Below, piece by piece: positions 17,659-24,546 of a DNA stretch of 64,000 nucleotides. Under the pieces are notes generated by a model. That model searched no databases, was not told the DNA's origin, and worked only from the letters and a program-made list of their open reading frames with translations. A program made the position numbers and the translations under genes. This DNA is from Neorhizobium sp. NCHU2750. GTDB taxonomy: Bacteria > Pseudomonadota > Alphaproteobacteria > Rhizobiales > Rhizobiaceae. The stretch lies in assembly GCF_003597675.1 (NCBI RefSeq), contig NZ_CP030829.1, forward strand, positions 248,001-312,000. The letters run 5' to 3'. Each line of letters begins with the position of its first letter. Position 1 is the stretch's first letter.

Positions 17659-18222
17659 TCAGCCGATCTTTCCCCAGTCTGGAATAATCTTTTCTATCGG
17701 AAGTGGGTCTACGCTTTGGTAATGGTTGGCGTTGTCGCAAAATTCAAAGCGCCAGCGACGGCTACCTTCAATCGTTTCGATCACCCTATAGCCATTGACG
17801 ATCTCATCCGTGACTTCGACGTCATAGCCCCAAAGCCATCCGCCATAACGGGTTCCCTGGCTGGATCGCAGGACAATCTCGAAAAAATATCCACCTTCCG
17901 CTTCTCTCATACGAAAGATCAGATCCAGATTGTCCTCGTCAGCTTCCAGGACATCACCGGCAGATAAACGGCTCGCAGCGATCCGGGTATTGGCAAGCGC
18001 TCCTATCGGGTAGTAGGGCCGGCCCTTGAACGACATGAACTCGGCAATCGCATAGCCGACATCATCGGCGCGCTGATATGGCTCCGTGACAGCGGTGAAT
18101 GCCATATAGGAACGACCGAACACGATCGGGTTTGCCATTTTTCCTGTCATCGGTATCACTACAACATAGAGCTGCATCGCCTGCGATTCCAGCATGGCGA
18201 ACAACGTCATAAGTTGCGTCAC
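17659..18222 (-). CDS. Hypothetical protein divergent from the YcaO-TfuA operon
   Basis: This frame encodes up to 187 residues and I do not recognise a family. It is Tyr/Trp-rich with acidic patches (VLEADEDNLDLIFRM, YGGWLWGYDVEV) and no obvious membrane span after the first 25 residues. The start is unsure: GTG 18222, ATG 18210, ATG 18195 or ATG 18177 are all in frame and none has a strong ribosome site. It is transcribed away from the BTAD regulator with about 80 bases between them, so shared regulation with the YcaO operon is possible. Confidence 0.6.
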   Translation of the reverse strand: MTQLMTLFAMLESQAMQLYVVVIPMTGKMANPIVFGRSYMAFTAVTEPYQRADDVGYAIAEFMSFKGRPYYPIGALANTRIAASRLSAGDVLEADEDNLDLIFRMREAEGGYFFEIVLRSSQGTRYGGWLWGYDVEVTDEIVNGYRVIETIEGSRRWRFEFCDNANHYQSVDPLPIEKIIPDWGKIG

Positions 18223-18299
18223 ACCGACGTCAAATCGGAATTTCTATCACTTTCAATTTGGTGAAAGTCATTGTTAGATATCGGAACTGGAGTTCGACC

Positions 18300-20207
18300 G
18301 TGGCCGCATCAGACGATCCGATATCTCTTCATTTCTTTGGCGTCCCCCGATGGGCGGACAACAATGCCTTTTTCCCGCAGAAGGGCTTCGTGCTCCTCGC
18401 TGCTTTGCTTTTGTCGCCCGGCAATACCCTCACTCGCCAGGCGCTCGCCGCACTGCTCTGGGAAGACGTCGAACAGAAGCGCGCTCTTGCAAACCTACGT
18501 CAGCTATTGTCGAGGCTCCAGCAGTTTGGAGGCAACGAGCCCCTACTTCTTGCCAGCGGCAGCAGCCTGACGGCTGGCCCGAAGGCGTATCGCTCCGATC
18601 TCGGATGTTTTCTCGGCTCCATCTCATCGACGGATATAGCCATTCGAAAAGAGGGCCTGCTTGCCGTGCGCGGCGAACTCCTGCAGGCCTGCGAAAGTGG
18701 CCAGGAGGAATTTTATCTCTGGCTGCTATCGGAGAGAGGCCGGCTGAAAAGCATCTTCTTCTCCTCGGTCGGGCAACTGCTTGAGGATATAACGCGGTTT
18801 GGTGGCCAAAGATCGCATGAGATTGCCGCCATCGCCGATTGTGCCTTGACGCTGGAGCCCGATCGCGAAGAAACCTACCGTAGTGTCATGGCCGCGTACG
18901 CTCGCCTTGGCGACATTGGCCGCTACGAGCATACCTCCGAAAACCTGAACCGCATGCTTCGGCTCGAAGCACGGGCACCGGAGCCCGCCACCCTCGCGTT
19001 GCGCCGCCGGGTTCGTGCCGATCTTATCGACAGCGAACCGGAGCATCTTCCTAAGCCACGTGTGGAGAAGATGCGAGTGGCGTTCATGTTGCCATCCAAT
19101 GCCGACGATTCGGCTGCGGCACCGATCGTCCGCTCGTTTATCGAAGATGTCGCAAATAGCCTCGTGCGCTATCGCACCTTCACGGTCCTTGCCCCGCACA
19201 GCACGTTCGCGGCAAGCGCTGCAGGAAAACAGGGACAGGCTGTGTCGCTGCGGCCCGACTATGTGGTTGTGACGACGGTCTTTGCCGATATGCGCGCTTC
19301 CCTTTCTCTCATCGCGGAGAGCACGGGCGAAATCGTCTGGTCGCTGGAGGTCTCGCTTAGCGACCATGAACTGCCGGCGATTTTCAGGATTCTTTCCAAG
19401 CAAATTGCGGCCTGTCTGGCCGAGACACTTGAGCAAAGGCAGATCGCTCCATCCCGCAGGCACGCAGCGCCCGCCTACCTTCACCTCCTGCAGGGGCAGC
19501 AGCTCATCAAGGGAAAATGCGACCTGCCGCTTCTGCGCAGGGCAAGGGCCGAATTTCGCAAGGCTGTCGAACTCGATCATGGAATGGCGGTTGCCAGGGG
19601 AAGGATCGCGCAGACGCTACAGCTCGAATGGCTGATGCTCGGGGGTGGCGATCCCCATCTCCTGCATCGGGCGAAAGCCGAGGCCGAAGCATCGGTGGCA
19701 ATCGACGCCGCTTCGGGTATCGGGCAATGGATGTGCGCCGTCGTAGCACTACATCAGCGCGACTTCGACACATCCGCCGAACAGTTCCTGGAGGCGGAAG
19801 CTTTGGCCCCGAACTCTGCCGATCTTCTGTTACAGCATGCCGATGCCTTAGCGCATTTCGGCCAGACGGATCATGCCTGGGAACGGTTCGAACGGGCGAT
19901 CGACCTCAACCCGCTGGCACCCGACATTTACTGGTGGGCCGGCGCGAGTATCGCTCTGAAGCGGGAGGAATATACAACCGCGATAGAGCTGTGTGGACGA
20001 ATGGAGAATGACGAGCCGGCCCTTCGTGTGCTGACCGTCAGCCACGCATTGGGCGGCGATATCGACACAGCAAGGCGTTACGGCGATCGTCTGAAAGAGA
20101 ATCATCCGGGAATGACGGCGCGTCAGATCAGCCTGTTATCTCCTGATCGCAATCCGCAGGTAAATGAGAAGTTGTTTCAAGCGTATCAATTGGCCGGTAT
20201 CAAATAG
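18300..20207 (+). CDS. BTAD (SARP-like) transcriptional regulator with C-terminal TPR repeats
   Basis: This large regulator has about 635 residues. The N-terminal part resembles an OmpR-type winged helix plus bacterial transcriptional activation domain: FGVPRW, LLLSPGNTLTRQALAALLWED, RALANLRQLLSRLQ, then helices to about residue 245. A middle domain (about 265-400) resembles the TolB-like N-terminal domain that often follows. The C-terminus (about 430-620) has TPR-like helix pairs (AEFRKAVELDHGMAVA, AWERFERAIDLNPLAPD). GTG 18300 is chosen over GTG 18258 because a GGAG site lies 7 bases upstream. The next gene starts 10 bases after its stop, so it is the operon's first gene and likely its activator. 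It lacks an ATPase domain. Confidence 0.8.
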   Translation: MAASDDPISLHFFGVPRWADNNAFFPQKGFVLLAALLLSPGNTLTRQALAALLWEDVEQKRALANLRQLLSRLQQFGGNEPLLLASGSSLTAGPKAYRSDLGCFLGSISSTDIAIRKEGLLAVRGELLQACESGQEEFYLWLLSERGRLKSIFFSSVGQLLEDITRFGGQRSHEIAAIADCALTLEPDREETYRSVMAAYARLGDIGRYEHTSENLNRMLRLEARAPEPATLALRRRVRADLIDSEPEHLPKPRVEKMRVAFMLPSNADDSAAAPIVRSFIEDVANSLVRYRTFTVLAPHSTFAASAAGKQGQAVSLRPDYVVVTTVFADMRASLSLIAESTGEIVWSLEVSLSDHELPAIFRILSKQIAACLAETLEQRQIAPSRRHAAPAYLHLLQGQQLIKGKCDLPLLRRARAEFRKAVELDHGMAVARGRIAQTLQLEWLMLGGGDPHLLHRAKAEAEASVAIDAASGIGQWMCAVVALHQRDFDTSAEQFLEAEALAPNSADLLLQHADALAHFGQTDHAWERFERAIDLNPLAPDIYWWAGASIALKREEYTTAIELCGRMENDEPALRVLTVSHALGGDIDTARRYGDRLKENHPGMTARQISLLSPDRNPQVNEKLFQAYQLAGIK

Positions 20208-20217
20208 GGGGTTTAAA

Positions 20218-20649
20218 ATGGCTAATTCTCAGTTCTATGTCATTGGCAAGAAGGGTAGCGGCGTTCTCTTCGTACGCACCGAACCGCTGCGGGTGGCTTC
20301 GGTTTCCCACGACGTCATCGCCGAATATGAAGCAAGCCATCCGGGCGTGGATGGCTATGCCCGCGTGGCTGCCGCTGCAAAGGGAATGCTTGTGGGCCAG
20401 GACGGGCAGCCTGAAACCACGCTCGACCAGGTTCAGGCCCAAGGCATCGAGACGGTCATTGCATCGGGTGCCGTGATGTCGGATGCCGACTTCGCCTTTG
20501 TCGGCGACGTCGTCGATGCCGGCTGGGACTTCAACCGTGTCATCCAGTTGCCGATTGAAAGCGCACTGAAGGCCGTCGGCCCCTCGGGCATTGCCTCGGG
20601 AGACCTTTTCGCGGCGATCCTGTCCGACACGCCGAACAAGGCTCCCTGA
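20218..20649 (+). CDS. 143-residue Cys-free protein, candidate substrate or scaffold of YcaO-TfuA
   Basis: I do not recognise this family. The 143-residue protein has no Cys, no signal peptide and no membrane span. It starts with a beta-rich segment QFYVIGKKGSGVLFVRTEPL, has Ala/Val-rich middle parts and ends SDTPNKAP. ATG 20218 follows an AGGGGG site; the frame upstream overlaps the regulator and is rejected. It starts 10 bases after the regulator and its stop overlaps the ycaO start by one base. In YcaO operons the gene in this place often encodes the modified protein or a recognition partner; here it would be modified at Gly, Ser or Thr rather than Cys. That role is inference. Confidence 0.8.
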   Translation: MANSQFYVIGKKGSGVLFVRTEPLRVASVSHDVIAEYEASHPGVDGYARVAAAAKGMLVGQDGQPETTLDQVQAQGIETVIASGAVMSDADFAFVGDVVDAGWDFNRVIQLPIESALKAVGPSGIASGDLFAAILSDTPNKAP

Positions 20650-21869
20650 TGACTCCGGGAATGGCGCCTGCAGGCGAGACTGCTTGCGGGCGTCGCTCAG
20701 TCCGGCACACGGAAACGGCCGTGATCTATGATCCCGGTTTCCTCCATCACTTCGGTATCACCAGGGTCGGCGACGTCACCGGGCTGGATGTCATCGGCAT
20801 GCCGGTCTGGTTTGCCACGCGCCCCAATTCCCGCGGCCTGTCGGTCGCACAGGGAAAGGGGTTGACGGATCAACAGGCGCAGCTTTCTGCCATCATGGAA
20901 GCGATAGAAGGCGCGGTTGCGGAAGATACACAGGGCCATCTGTGCGACTTCTGCTCTATTGACGCTCTGCACCGGCGTGGAGTGAGAACCATACCTTTCG
21001 AAGGCGTGTCCCGCGTCCGATCGAATAGCATAGATTTTTCGCACGAGAGGGCCTGGGTCGAAGGCTACAGCTTGCGCCACGATCACGCGGTGCTGGCCCC
21101 ATTCGAGCTGGTCGGCTTGGACTTCCGGGCCGATTTCCCATGGGACAGGGATGCCTTCCTGATGAGTTCCCAAGGTCTGGCCGCCGGCTTCGATTTTGAC
21201 CGCGCGGCCCTGCATGCCATCCTCGAACTCGTCGAGAATGACGCCTGCCTGCTCATCGACGCCCTGGCAATGCAGGGAGCTGCGACACGTCCGATCGCCT
21301 TCGCGCGCGGACAGTCGGCCGATCTGGACGCTCTTATCGAGATGCTCGAAGCCGTTTATCTGGATGCACGCTTTTTCGACCTGACCGGGGCAAATGGCAT
21401 TCCAGTCGTTCTGGCAAGCATACCGCGCATATTAAGCACCGAGGATGGTCCGGGAAGCCGAGCCTCGGCGGGTGTCGCCTGCCGTCTCAATATGGCGGAG
21501 GCTGCATCATCCGCTCTGCAGGAAGCCATACAATCCCGCCTGACCGATATCAGCGGCGCCCGCGACGACCTCTCGCCGGGCCGCTACCGGGCTGATCGTG
21601 CTGCGCCGGTCAGAGGGGCGTCCTCCAGCGAAAAGCCGAGACCGGTGCAGGCAACGAACCTTCTCCCGGACAACAAGGCCGGTCCGCTCTGGCGAAGCCT
21701 TGCCGAGCACCTGTTTTCCTGCGGCGTTTCCGATATCTATCTATTTCCGCTGAAAACGGGGCGTGCCGATGTCTTCGTGGTGAGAGCGCTTGCCTGCGGC
21801 ATGACCACCGCCAACGGGGTGGAAAGCAAACTCAACCTCGGCGCACTCAACAGTATTCTCGGGGGTTAG
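20649..21869 (+). CDS. YcaO-domain ATP-dependent cyclodehydratase/thioamidase
   Basis: This 406-residue protein has the YcaO ATP-binding motifs: SAIMEAIEG at residues 80-88 (S80, E84, E87), ILELVENDA at 191-199 and ALQEAIQSRLTDISGARDD at 289-307. YcaO enzymes phosphorylate backbone amides to form azolines or, with TfuA, thioamides. The C-terminus ends NLGALNSILGG and has no PxPxP tail, a motif seen in many azoline-forming members. No partner E1-like (ThiF) or dehydrogenase gene is next to it, but tfuA follows 3 bases later, which points to thioamidation-type chemistry. Confidence 0.9.
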   Translation: MTPGMAPAGETACGRRSVRHTETAVIYDPGFLHHFGITRVGDVTGLDVIGMPVWFATRPNSRGLSVAQGKGLTDQQAQLSAIMEAIEGAVAEDTQGHLCDFCSIDALHRRGVRTIPFEGVSRVRSNSIDFSHERAWVEGYSLRHDHAVLAPFELVGLDFRADFPWDRDAFLMSSQGLAAGFDFDRAALHAILELVENDACLLIDALAMQGAATRPIAFARGQSADLDALIEMLEAVYLDARFFDLTGANGIPVVLASIPRILSTEDGPGSRASAGVACRLNMAEAASSALQEAIQSRLTDISGARDDLSPGRYRADRAAPVRGASSSEKPRPVQATNLLPDNKAGPLWRSLAEHLFSCGVSDIYLFPLKTGRADVFVVRALACGMTTANGVESKLNLGALNSILGG

Positions 21870-21872
21870 GCC

Positions 21873-22601
21873 TTGAACAGGATCGTCTTTGCCGGCCCCT
21901 CCATTCATGGGATCGATCTTTCCAACTATCGGGGCATTCAGTTGCACCCACCCGCGGCCGCTGGCGATATGCTGTCGGCTGTCGATGCCGGCTTCGACGT
22001 CATTGGATTGATCGACGGGTTGTACAAGGACCAAGCGGCCGTCTGGCACAAGGAATTGCTCTACGCCCTGTCGAAAGGTGTCCTTGTTCTCGGCGCGGCC
22101 AGCATGGGGGCGTTGCGGGCGGCGGAATGCGACAGCTTCGGCATGATCGGACTGGGGCAGGTCTATCAGGCCTATCGCACAGGTATGCGGACGTCGGATG
22201 CGGATGTCGCCGTGCTTCACGCACCGACAGAAATGGGCTTTCGGCCTCTGACGATCGCGCTTGTCGATGCCGAAGCGACGATCGAAAGCTTGCGCGAAAG
22301 AATTGGCGACGAGCAAGCGGCACACCTCCTGCAGGCCGCGCGAACACTTCATTTCAGCCGGCGGTCGTGGCGGCAGATCGTAACAGGCGCCAAGCTGGAT
22401 CGAGAGCTGATTGCTGTCCTCTCCGCCAACCCGATATCGGTGAAACGGTCGGATGCAGAGCTTCTGCTCTCGACCGTGCGGAACAACGCTTTCAGCCGTC
22501 AGCGACCGACTGGCTGGACATTCCAGAGGACGATATTCTTCGACGCACTTGCCGCACGCAATGGCTCGTCTCTGAAGAACAGCGAAGGTCCGCACGGATG
22601 A
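21873..22601 (+). CDS. tfuA: TfuA-like protein, YcaO partner
   Basis: This 242-residue protein has the TfuA core: N-terminal VFAGPSIHG, PPAAAGDM, VIGLIDGLY, then the strongly conserved GVLVLGAASMGALRAAEC and VAVLHAP segments. TfuA proteins act with YcaO enzymes; in methanogens the pair makes the thioglycine of methyl-CoM reductase, with TfuA thought to help deliver sulfide. The start is TTG 21873, three bases after the ycaO stop, with a GGGGG site upstream, and it gives the normal N-terminus. Its stop overlaps the next gene by four bases. Confidence 0.9.
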   Translation: MNRIVFAGPSIHGIDLSNYRGIQLHPPAAAGDMLSAVDAGFDVIGLIDGLYKDQAAVWHKELLYALSKGVLVLGAASMGALRAAECDSFGMIGLGQVYQAYRTGMRTSDADVAVLHAPTEMGFRPLTIALVDAEATIESLRERIGDEQAAHLLQAARTLHFSRRSWRQIVTGAKLDRELIAVLSANPISVKRSDAELLLSTVRNNAFSRQRPTGWTFQRTIFFDALAARNGSSLKNSEGPHG

Positions 22602-23722
22602 AGCTTCTGGCGGATTGCGGCGGGCTTGTCCGGCGGATCGCACTTGCCATTCCGGCAACGTTTTTCGATAGGATAAACCAGCCAGGCGATTGGGCTCCAT
22701 TGGCGCCGATCGGCAATCTCCTGGATTCGATGCCCAATGGGATAGAAGCCATCCTCCTCGTGGACAGGATCGTGATGGCGCATGCCGAACGATGGGTTGC
22801 CGGTCTGACAACGGTCTGCGACGTCACCGTTTGCCCTGTCTCAGATGCCGCTCACCCGATTTCGATCCCATGGCTTCAGGATGTCTTCCACGTTCGAGAG
22901 CTTTCTTCCGTCTCTGGCGCCGGACACGAATATCTGTCTTTTTCGGGCGCAGGCGCGGCAATGGATCTGGCCACCCTTCAGGGAGCCGCTTCGAAAATCC
23001 TTCCGTTCCATCTCGACGGCGGTAATCAGTTGATTGGATCCGACTTCCGGATCATCGGCCATTCGGACTTCGGCAAGATGGAAGCCATTCGAGCGCTGGA
23101 CAAGCGACCGGTCCATGTTTTCGGCTATCGGGTGAATGATATCGTTCGCCCGCCGGCAGGTCTGAAGGGTATGCCTGAGGCCGATCACCATGACTTGGCG
23201 AGTGGCATGAGGCAGCATTCCAAGATGCATCAGTTCGGCTACCATGTCGACCAATTCGTCACCCTGACCGGCCTGGAGCGCGTCGGCAAGCCTCTGCTGG
23301 TGGTCGGCGAGCCTGTTGCGGATGGCCGTTTTTCCCGTGCCATCGATGTCGCGCGCTGCAGCCTCGACGCATCGGTAATCTTTCTGGAAGAGCAGGGTTT
23401 CGAGGTGATCCGCAATCAAGTGCCCTTCGCCGTCACGACAGACACGCGCAAGCTGCTGCCGCGCCTCTACAACAACGCCATGCTGGAAAACGACCTTCGC
23501 GAAGGCAAAGATCGCCCCTTGATCTGGCTGCCACAATTTTCAGACAGCGAAGCGCTGGACGAGACCGACCAATCCAATGCCACGCTTTGGGAAGACCTGG
23601 GATTTGAGGTCAGGAAAGTCTTCGGCTGGAGCCATCTTGCGAGCAGAAGCGGCGCCTTGCGATGCATCTCGAAAGTGATCGAGCGGTGTGCACGACAGGG
23701 TAAACTCAACGCTAAAGTCTGA
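22598..23722 (+). CDS. Pentein-fold enzyme (deiminase / amidinotransferase / hydrolase-like) in the YcaO-TfuA operon
   Basis: This 374-residue protein shows the pentein (guanidine-modifying enzyme) active-site landmarks in order: PWLQDVF at 91-97 in place of the W-x-R-D motif, HLDGGN at 138-143, HVDQF at 216-220 with the catalytic His216 and Asp218, YNNAMLEN at 291-298, and SGALRCIS at 351-358 with Cys356 where the nucleophile is expected. Family members act on guanidinium groups (arginine, agmatine, dimethylarginine, peptidyl-arginine). The subfamily here is not one I recognise. ATG 22598 overlaps the tfuA stop (ATGA), so it is translated with the YcaO-TfuA pair, and a role in modifying the same product is the natural reading. 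Confidence 0.8.
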   Translation: MKLLADCGGLVRRIALAIPATFFDRINQPGDWAPLAPIGNLLDSMPNGIEAILLVDRIVMAHAERWVAGLTTVCDVTVCPVSDAAHPISIPWLQDVFHVRELSSVSGAGHEYLSFSGAGAAMDLATLQGAASKILPFHLDGGNQLIGSDFRIIGHSDFGKMEAIRALDKRPVHVFGYRVNDIVRPPAGLKGMPEADHHDLASGMRQHSKMHQFGYHVDQFVTLTGLERVGKPLLVVGEPVADGRFSRAIDVARCSLDASVIFLEEQGFEVIRNQVPFAVTTDTRKLLPRLYNNAMLENDLREGKDRPLIWLPQFSDSEALDETDQSNATLWEDLGFEVRKVFGWSHLASRSGALRCISKVIERCARQGKLNAKV

Positions 23723-23787: not shown

Positions 23788-24234
23788 ATGGAGACTGGAA
23801 TGAGGGCGAGAACACCAAACGCGATCGACGTCCATGTCGGTTTTCAGATAAAGATGCATCGCAAGGCATTGCGGCTCAGCCAGACAGCCCTTGCCGATCG
23901 GCTCGGTATTACCTTCCAGCAGATCCAGAAATACGAAAAGGGCACCAACCGCGTCGGCGCCTCCCGATTACAATCGATTGCCGCCATTCTCGGCATCGAG
24001 GTCGCATCGCTTTTCGAAGGCAGCCCGACCAATGATGCGACACCATTGGCTGTCAGGGACCCGGAGCAACTGGCTTTGCGGGAATTCCTGCTTTCGACAG
24101 ACGGTTTTGAGCTCAACCAGGCGTTCTTCAAAATCCGCAGCGCCGATACGCGCCGCCAGATTGTCGCTTTGGCCCGCAGCCTGGCGGAAGACGCCCCGGA
24201 CGAGGATAACGGAGAGATGAGCGGGGGCCTGTGA
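23788..24234 (+). CDS. XRE-family helix-turn-helix regulator
   Basis: This 148-residue protein has a Cro/C1-type HTH at about residues 18-75 (RLSQTALADRLGITFQQIQKYEKG is the helix-turn-helix with recognition helix) and a C-terminal helical segment of about 60 residues ending in an acidic tail. The domain layout is common for rhizobial XRE regulators of 130-150 residues. It starts 65 bases after the pentein gene, so it may be a separate unit or the end of that operon. A second ATG four codons downstream is also possible. Confidence 0.85.
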   Translation: METGMRARTPNAIDVHVGFQIKMHRKALRLSQTALADRLGITFQQIQKYEKGTNRVGASRLQSIAAILGIEVASLFEGSPTNDATPLAVRDPEQLALREFLLSTDGFELNQAFFKIRSADTRRQIVALARSLAEDAPDEDNGEMSGGL

Positions 24235-24324: not shown

Positions 24325-24546
24325 ATGATCGAGAAATTCGCCGACACCGACGATAAGGCCGCAGAGATCCTAGCGCTGGGTCGCATGGTTTCCTACGCCC
24401 GCCAGCAGGCGCAGGCGATGGATCTCGAATTCTCGACCTATTGCCTCGATGTCGCGCTCCGGTCCATCGTTCAGGACATCGCCAAGAAGGGCTTCTGTTT
24501 CGCGGCGAATGAAAACATGGTGTCTTTGTCCAACGAGCGGAACTGA
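24325..24546 (+). CDS. Small hypothetical protein (73 residues)
   Basis: This small acidic-to-neutral helical protein has no Cys-rich or membrane features (two Cys: STYCLDV and KKGFCFA). It follows the XRE gene by about 90 bases on the same strand. Its codon pattern matches the neighbours and the N-terminus begins with a clean ATG after CAACGGAGCCTCA (GGAG). I recognise the general type as short rhizobial hypothetical proteins but know no function. Confidence 0.65.
   Translation: MIEKFADTDDKAAEILALGRMVSYARQQAQAMDLEFSTYCLDVALRSIVQDIAKKGFCFAANENMVSLSNERN

Follow-up and report, generated by a model that had tools for sequence, protein, structure and literature searches.

A conserved YcaO-TfuA operon with an added pentein-fold enzyme and a candidate small-protein substrate in Neorhizobium and related bacteria

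The operon and its proposed product

The 64,000-nucleotide stretch of Neorhizobium sp. NCHU2750 analyzed here (contig NZ_CP030829.1, positions 248,001 to 312,000; hereafter, the window) contains a compact operon encoding a BTAD/TPR regulator-like protein, a 143-residue small protein, YcaO, TfuA, and a pentein-fold enzyme. With moderate confidence, we interpret it as a protein-modification operon resembling those of the ribosomally synthesized and post-translationally modified peptides (RiPPs), in which the 143-residue protein would be the dedicated substrate of both YcaO-TfuA and the pentein. The gene set is of the YcaO-TfuA kind with a pentein added, and a mechanism combining the two chemistries is plausible. 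The original prediction placed five tightly packed genes here; their coordinates hold, on the plus strand, and Pfam backs the YcaO, TfuA, BTAD, and TPR assignments. The features are as follows, with locus counts referring to the 31 contig loci described below.

17659-18222, minus strand: divergent gene, 187 aa (25 of 31 loci have a relative; its place ahead of the operon is kept in the closer ones)
18258-20207, plus strand: BTAD/TPR regulator-like protein (Pfam; 30 of 31 loci)
20206-20211, plus strand: AGGGGG, a clear ribosome-binding-like site by eye, 6 bases before the small-protein ATG
20218-20649, plus strand: small protein, 143 aa, proposed substrate or precursor (31 of 31 loci)
20536-20538, plus strand: Arg107 codon of the small protein, the sole invariant Arg among the aligned rows
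20649-21869, plus strand: YcaO (Pfam PF02624, E 2.2e-45, residues 68-385)
21873-22601, plus strand: TfuA (Pfam PF07812, E 4.5e-40, residues 48-165)
22598-23722, plus strand: pentein-fold enzyme of the guanidino-modifying type (fold and profile comparison)
23788-24234, plus strand: helix-turn-helix (HTH) regulator, Cro/C1-type (Pfam HTH_3, E 1.6e-12; 26 of 31 loci)

The BTAD/TPR and small-protein genes are separated by 10 bases, the small-protein and YcaO genes overlap by 1 base, YcaO and TfuA are 3 bases apart, and TfuA and the pentein share an ATGA overlap. The TfuA start is also preceded by a G run resembling the AGGGGG site, as judged by eye. The BTAD/TPR frame opens at a TTG (18258), with a GTG at 18300 as an alternative start; its product matches BTAD over the cut-off (E 5.4e-8) and TPR_11 (E 1.4e-6), and a possible N-terminal winged helix, as in SARP/BTAD regulators, matches Trans_reg_C under the cut-off (E 0.0048). 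The best NCBIfam match of YcaO is TIGR03266 (McrA thioamidation) and TfuA matches NF033432 (E 7.5e-50), each under the cut-off of its family. Neither the small protein nor the pentein has a Pfam or NCBIfam match at E values up to 1; for the divergent 187-residue protein, Pfam gives nothing over the cut-off and NCBIfam nothing at all. In the seven proteins of the cassette, Pfam and NCBIfam recognize no protease, exporter, or ThiF-like C protein. The HTH gene and the divergent gene, both conserved, sit just beyond the limits of the original prediction. A 73-residue open reading frame (ORF) lies 3' of the HTH gene (24325-24546, plus strand); among 14 loci compared, five have a relative of it in their flanks, the window being one of them.

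Conservation of the gene set

A pentein search of 394 genomes of the window's family gave eight matches: the window's own, six others of full length, and one weak fragment (genome G105), near which no YcaO was found. All six full-length matches share the window's order, BTAD-small-YcaO-TfuA-pentein, and a Rhizobium daejeonense plasmid provides a seventh locus with the same five genes, its BTAD gene being cut by the end of the record. Among these seven, the HTH gene follows in five and the divergent gene lies ahead in four. Scanning named genome contigs with the pentein profile yielded 31 loci, of which seven were judged to be the same contigs as genomes of the other sets. These loci span Rhizobium, Neorhizobium, Agrobacterium, Ciceribacter, Xaviernesmea, Mesorhizobium, Dongia, and metagenome-assembled genomes (MAGs) named only to higher rank. 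The order small-YcaO-TfuA-pentein occurs in 31 of 31 (the pentein by construction), accompanied by BTAD in 30, HTH in 26, and the divergent gene in 25; the locus without BTAD is on a contig that begins at the small gene. YcaO and TfuA are adjacent in every case, the TfuA of a Dongia MAG (L045:9249-9989) reading as two adjacent open frames, and Mesorhizobium albiziae (L046) carries two tandem copies of the small gene.

At the order level, the pentein was matched in 7 of 397 genomes, including the window's own. Two of these (G742 and G632) have the full operon, one (G403) encodes another small protein together with BTAD, YcaO, TfuA, and the pentein, and one (G758) has operon parts on two contig edges. 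In G555, the pentein is present with no YcaO found within 19.5 kb, and G418 holds the C-terminal part of a pentein relative, truncated where the contig stops (L062:6813-7124). A survey of 20 genomes from the family of G403 gave two matches, which were once more G403 and G758. At the class level, 4 of 385 genomes contain the small protein, one being the window's own; the other three carry the complete operon. The pentein profile, run on 362 genomes, returned the same four and two weak hits. The gene order is more than chance, since all 31 loci retrieved by way of the pentein repeat it. Whether the pentein or the small gene would drop out of related neighborhoods had been raised at the outset; loci of this type keep both. 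The pentein, YcaO-TfuA, small protein, and BTAD/TPR genes are thereby upheld as one unit, co-inherited across loci and surveys.

Two other settings of pentein relatives were also observed. The piece in G418 adjoins an NHLP bacteriocin export operon (L062:669-6605; ABC1 and HlyD over the cut-off, ABC2 just under). A distant relative on a plasmid of Paenibacillus polymyxa M1 (L010:9746-11062), annotated as hypothetical, lies beside a DNA/RNA non-specific endonuclease gene, and no YcaO is annotated near it.

The slot between BTAD and YcaO in related operons

TfuA relatives occur in 124 of the 394 family genomes. From the listed matches, mostly high-scoring ones, 53 other TfuA loci were fetched, and none has a pentein in the 7-17 kb retrieved. 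In 39 of them, BTAD and YcaO are separated by a short ORF; 37 of these have the order HTH-BTAD-short-YcaO-TfuA, another has HTH at the end, and the last lacks HTH. The remainder comprise seven BTAD-YcaO-TfuA-HTH, four HTH-TfuA, two YcaO-TfuA, and one YcaO-TfuA-BTAD arrangement. In L112, L116, L128, and L129, TfuA adjoins an HTH gene, and neither YcaO nor BTAD was found in the sequence retrieved. BTAD thus also heads YcaO-TfuA pairs that lack a pentein, and the original idea of a regulator dedicated to this cluster is not supported; HTH relatives likewise head short-precursor operons.

The short-precursor operons lie among L109-L161 (e.g., L131:3407-3694 and L109:9962-10243). Their 38 distinct proteins (one identical copy dropped) are 67-90 residues long and share a common N-terminal part and a C-terminal motif such as SGGFMDG. 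A core-motif pattern, written after these proteins had been inspected, fits 37 of the 38, with two to three repeats in six, e.g. SGGYMDAGGGYMDADGGYMDK. A recognizable leader and core are clear in the short relatives and not clear in the 143-residue protein. A third peptide of 42-52 residues is found in the seven BTAD-YcaO-TfuA-HTH loci (L141, L149, L153, L156, L158, L159, and L161; that of L141 has 43 residues when read from an internal start within a 65-residue ORF), and ends in forms such as NIVHAVRFR or VHAVRFR. Because the short core-motif proteins and the third peptide occupy the BTAD-YcaO position in sister operons, this position is, as judged from its occupants, a precursor slot, which the 143-residue protein would fill in the pentein clade. 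The same comparison supports the small protein as the product that the enzymes modify. The short-protein profile also matches the small proteins of two outlier pentein loci, L064 (1.9e-10) and L060 (0.006). No description of the short-precursor operons without a pentein, or of anything related to the core-motif strings, was found in the open-licence papers searched.

In a YcaO and TfuA tree of 70 loci (four having been dropped for want of YcaO), all 19 pentein-type loci that we chose fall into one clade with support 1.0. These are the window, 14 of the 31 contig loci, L058, L061, L069, and L070, where L047 and L070 were judged to be the same contig. The outliers L060 and L064 fall apart from this clade, near other precursor types; the clade holding all pentein-type loci has a support of 0.296, and where the two outliers join is consequently uncertain. 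A bit-score gap separates seven pentein-type TfuAs from the others, partly by construction, because those seven sequences built the profile.

The small protein and Arg107

The small protein is free of Cys in the window, as originally described; this does not hold as a family trait, since 7 of 33 aligned relatives have Cys. It matched no fold and is predicted to form three strands followed by helices, and no Pfam family was recognized in the 33 relatives. Rates were compared among 31 loci, namely the window plus 30 contig loci; the thirty-first, L045, was left out for its split TfuA. Four divergent loci were set apart (L043, L046, L047, and L048), of which L043 and L046 were judged to belong to the window's own family. 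In the 27 closer loci (351 pairs), the mean identity is 75.0% for the small protein, 61.7% for TfuA, 60.1% for YcaO, and 50.2% for the pentein, and the small protein ranks highest in 332 of the 351 pairs. Between the closer and divergent sets, it has the lowest identity (31.3%). This pattern fits a function kept within the clade rather than a fast-changing weapon.

Arg107 is the only invariant Arg in the 33 aligned rows of the 143-residue type (32 distinct), and it is also present by eye in L058 and L061. It follows the strand that precedes the core in the short proteins. A tail Arg is found in 33 of 33 long proteins versus 4 of 38 short ones, and also in L060 and L064. That Arg107 is the target of the pentein is a good guess rather than a result.

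The pentein enzyme

The original assignment of the last gene as a pentein is confirmed by fold and profile comparison. Its nearest folds are agmatine deiminases, and identity in the structural alignments listed is 10-16%. The catalytic set of Asp, His, Asp, Asn, and Cys is conserved (D95, H216, D218, N293, and C356); the transfer of catalytic residues from agmatine deiminase to the numbering of the Porphyromonas gingivalis peptidylarginine deiminase was our own step. The PAD_porph family did not match the window's pentein and matched 1 of 31 relatives at E 0.2. An N-terminal DCGG motif (residues 6-9) is present in 31 of 31 aligned operon penteins and in L058; in its place, L061 has DLGG, and both L010 and the outlier L060 have SSEG. 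The Glu of the EGG motif, a mark of agmatine deiminases, is invariant in six reference sequences.

Proposed mechanism and alternatives

The proposed mechanism draws directly on gene order, domain identities, the predicted pentein fold and its catalytic residues, co-inheritance, and the slot occupants in related operons; from these we infer the substrate, thioamide formation, target residue, pentein reaction type, order of steps, and regulation. YcaO would activate a backbone amide of the 143-residue substrate in an ATP-dependent manner, and TfuA would deliver sulfur, so that one or more backbone carbonyl oxygens are replaced; such sulfur insertion into the small protein is probable. The pentein, a predicted guanidino-modifying enzyme with a Cys nucleophile, would probably act on the single unchanging Arg of the small protein, most likely Arg107, leaving citrulline, ornithine, or an amidino-transfer product. 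The BTAD/TPR and HTH proteins may control the operon. Since no protease or exporter is recognized in the cassette, the modified protein may be mature as a whole, or a host protease may cut it. TfuA systems probably take their sulfur from the thiamin pathway of the cell. Genes of the ThiS and ThiF families lie elsewhere in the same genome, with matches over the cut-off; consequently, an operon without ThiF raises no objection, and its absence, taken in the original prediction as a distinguishing mark, loses that meaning.

Several observations weigh against this mechanism. An hhalign comparison gave no significant homology between long and short precursors: it aligned the expected stretch with a score of 18.9, which 1 of 100 column-shuffled controls exceeded, and global mode gave no meaningful alignment. 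In the closer loci, the small protein is the most conserved of the four proteins, unlike many RiPP cores. The long tails average 44 residues versus 16 and therefore offer more room for an Arg. The third peptide family has Arg without a pentein, as does L157, which has no pentein within 17.9 kb; an Arg thus does not predict a pentein. Pentein relatives with no YcaO found nearby exist (L059, L010, and the fragment L017), and the agmatine-deiminase Glu is not kept, residue 140 being Asp in 6, Ala in 12, Pro in 12, and Glu in 1 of 31 penteins.

The conservation of the small protein along its whole length and its predicted strands and helices would also suit an adaptor or recognition partner, with the enzymes modifying a host protein elsewhere, as for McrA or for YcaO on the ribosomal protein uL16. 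The lack of a recognized protease or exporter and the best NCBIfam matches of YcaO and TfuA, which are McrA-modifying families under their cut-offs, point the same way. We nevertheless regard an adaptor as unlikely, given that core-repeat peptides occupy the same slot in sister operons and that the small gene is duplicated in M. albiziae. Less probable still is a pentein that acts on a small, agmatine-like guanidine or detoxifies a product, the operon then joining two separate steps. The agmatine deiminase-like fold and the relatives without YcaO nearby (L059 and L010) speak for it, whereas the unconserved Glu, the DCGG motif of the operon penteins and L058 (DLGG in L061) as opposed to SSEG in L060 and L010, and the close co-inheritance with the small protein speak against it. 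Formation by YcaO-TfuA of an azoline, azole, or amidine on which the pentein works is improbable: YcaO enzymes are known to make such groups, and there is a paper on an amidine RiPP, but TfuA is present, the cassette has no ThiF or C protein, and the window's small protein has no Cys.

The two-chemistry modification of a dedicated substrate may, more tentatively, define an undescribed class in which a folded bacterial protein receives both a backbone thioamide and an arginine (guanidino) change. The class would be a branch of a wider YcaO-TfuA family linked to BTAD, in which three or more precursor types occur and the pentein was recruited repeatedly (main clade; outliers L060 and L064).

Relation to known systems and significance

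As originally claimed, no paper joining both chemistries was found in the open-licence papers searched. There, no paper treated TfuA together with agmatine deiminase, and for YcaO with peptidylarginine deiminase only PMC13174530 appeared, which states that its own cluster encodes none. The YcaO-TfuA thioamidated RiPPs (thioviridamide-like compounds, thiovarsolins, thioamidated thiopeptides, and chimeric lanthipeptides; std cluster) share with the present operon adjacent YcaO and TfuA genes and a neighboring precursor gene, in the present case a candidate. The text consulted mentions no pentein, and the std cluster is the one stated to encode no peptidylarginine deiminase; the present operon differs in its conserved 143-residue proposed precursor, which is predicted to fold, and in its BTAD and HTH regulators. 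In a TfuA gene-cluster survey (PMC8120280), the dominant proteobacterial families of TfuA clusters include those of Rhizobium and Agrobacterium, and such loci are therefore probably in its data; its main text contains no mention of deiminase, agmatine, arginine, or BTAD. The "TfuA-associated non-TOMM YcaO" type of a 2015 survey of thiazole/oxazole-modified microcins (TOMMs) has, as here, YcaO beside TfuA without a C protein; that survey omitted this type and gave its substrate as unknown (PMC4603692). The McrA thioglycine (PMC5589413) and YcaO acting on uL16 (PMC13063428) place the thioamide on a folded protein rather than a peptide, as proposed here. Their targets are a host enzyme and a ribosomal protein, and the available parts of these papers mention no dedicated small protein or pentein. 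Agmatine deiminase, the P. gingivalis enzyme (PMC4893104), and the peptidylarginine deiminases of citrulline RiPPs (as cited in PMC13174530) have the pentein fold and the five guanidino-enzyme residues, as does the present pentein. In contrast, the EGG Glu is not conserved among the operon penteins, identity is 10-16% in the structural alignments listed, and the partner is YcaO-TfuA.

The proposal names a substrate, a target residue, and enzymes that can be tested in a group of probable thioamide operons, and the short-precursor operons with core-like repeats would suit co-expression directly. Soil and plant-associated bacteria seem to share a gene set by which one small protein is made and then altered by two kinds of enzyme. 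If true, this would join two protein chemistries not found combined in the open-licence papers searched, and would suggest a working protein that is conserved, not an antibiotic that varies.

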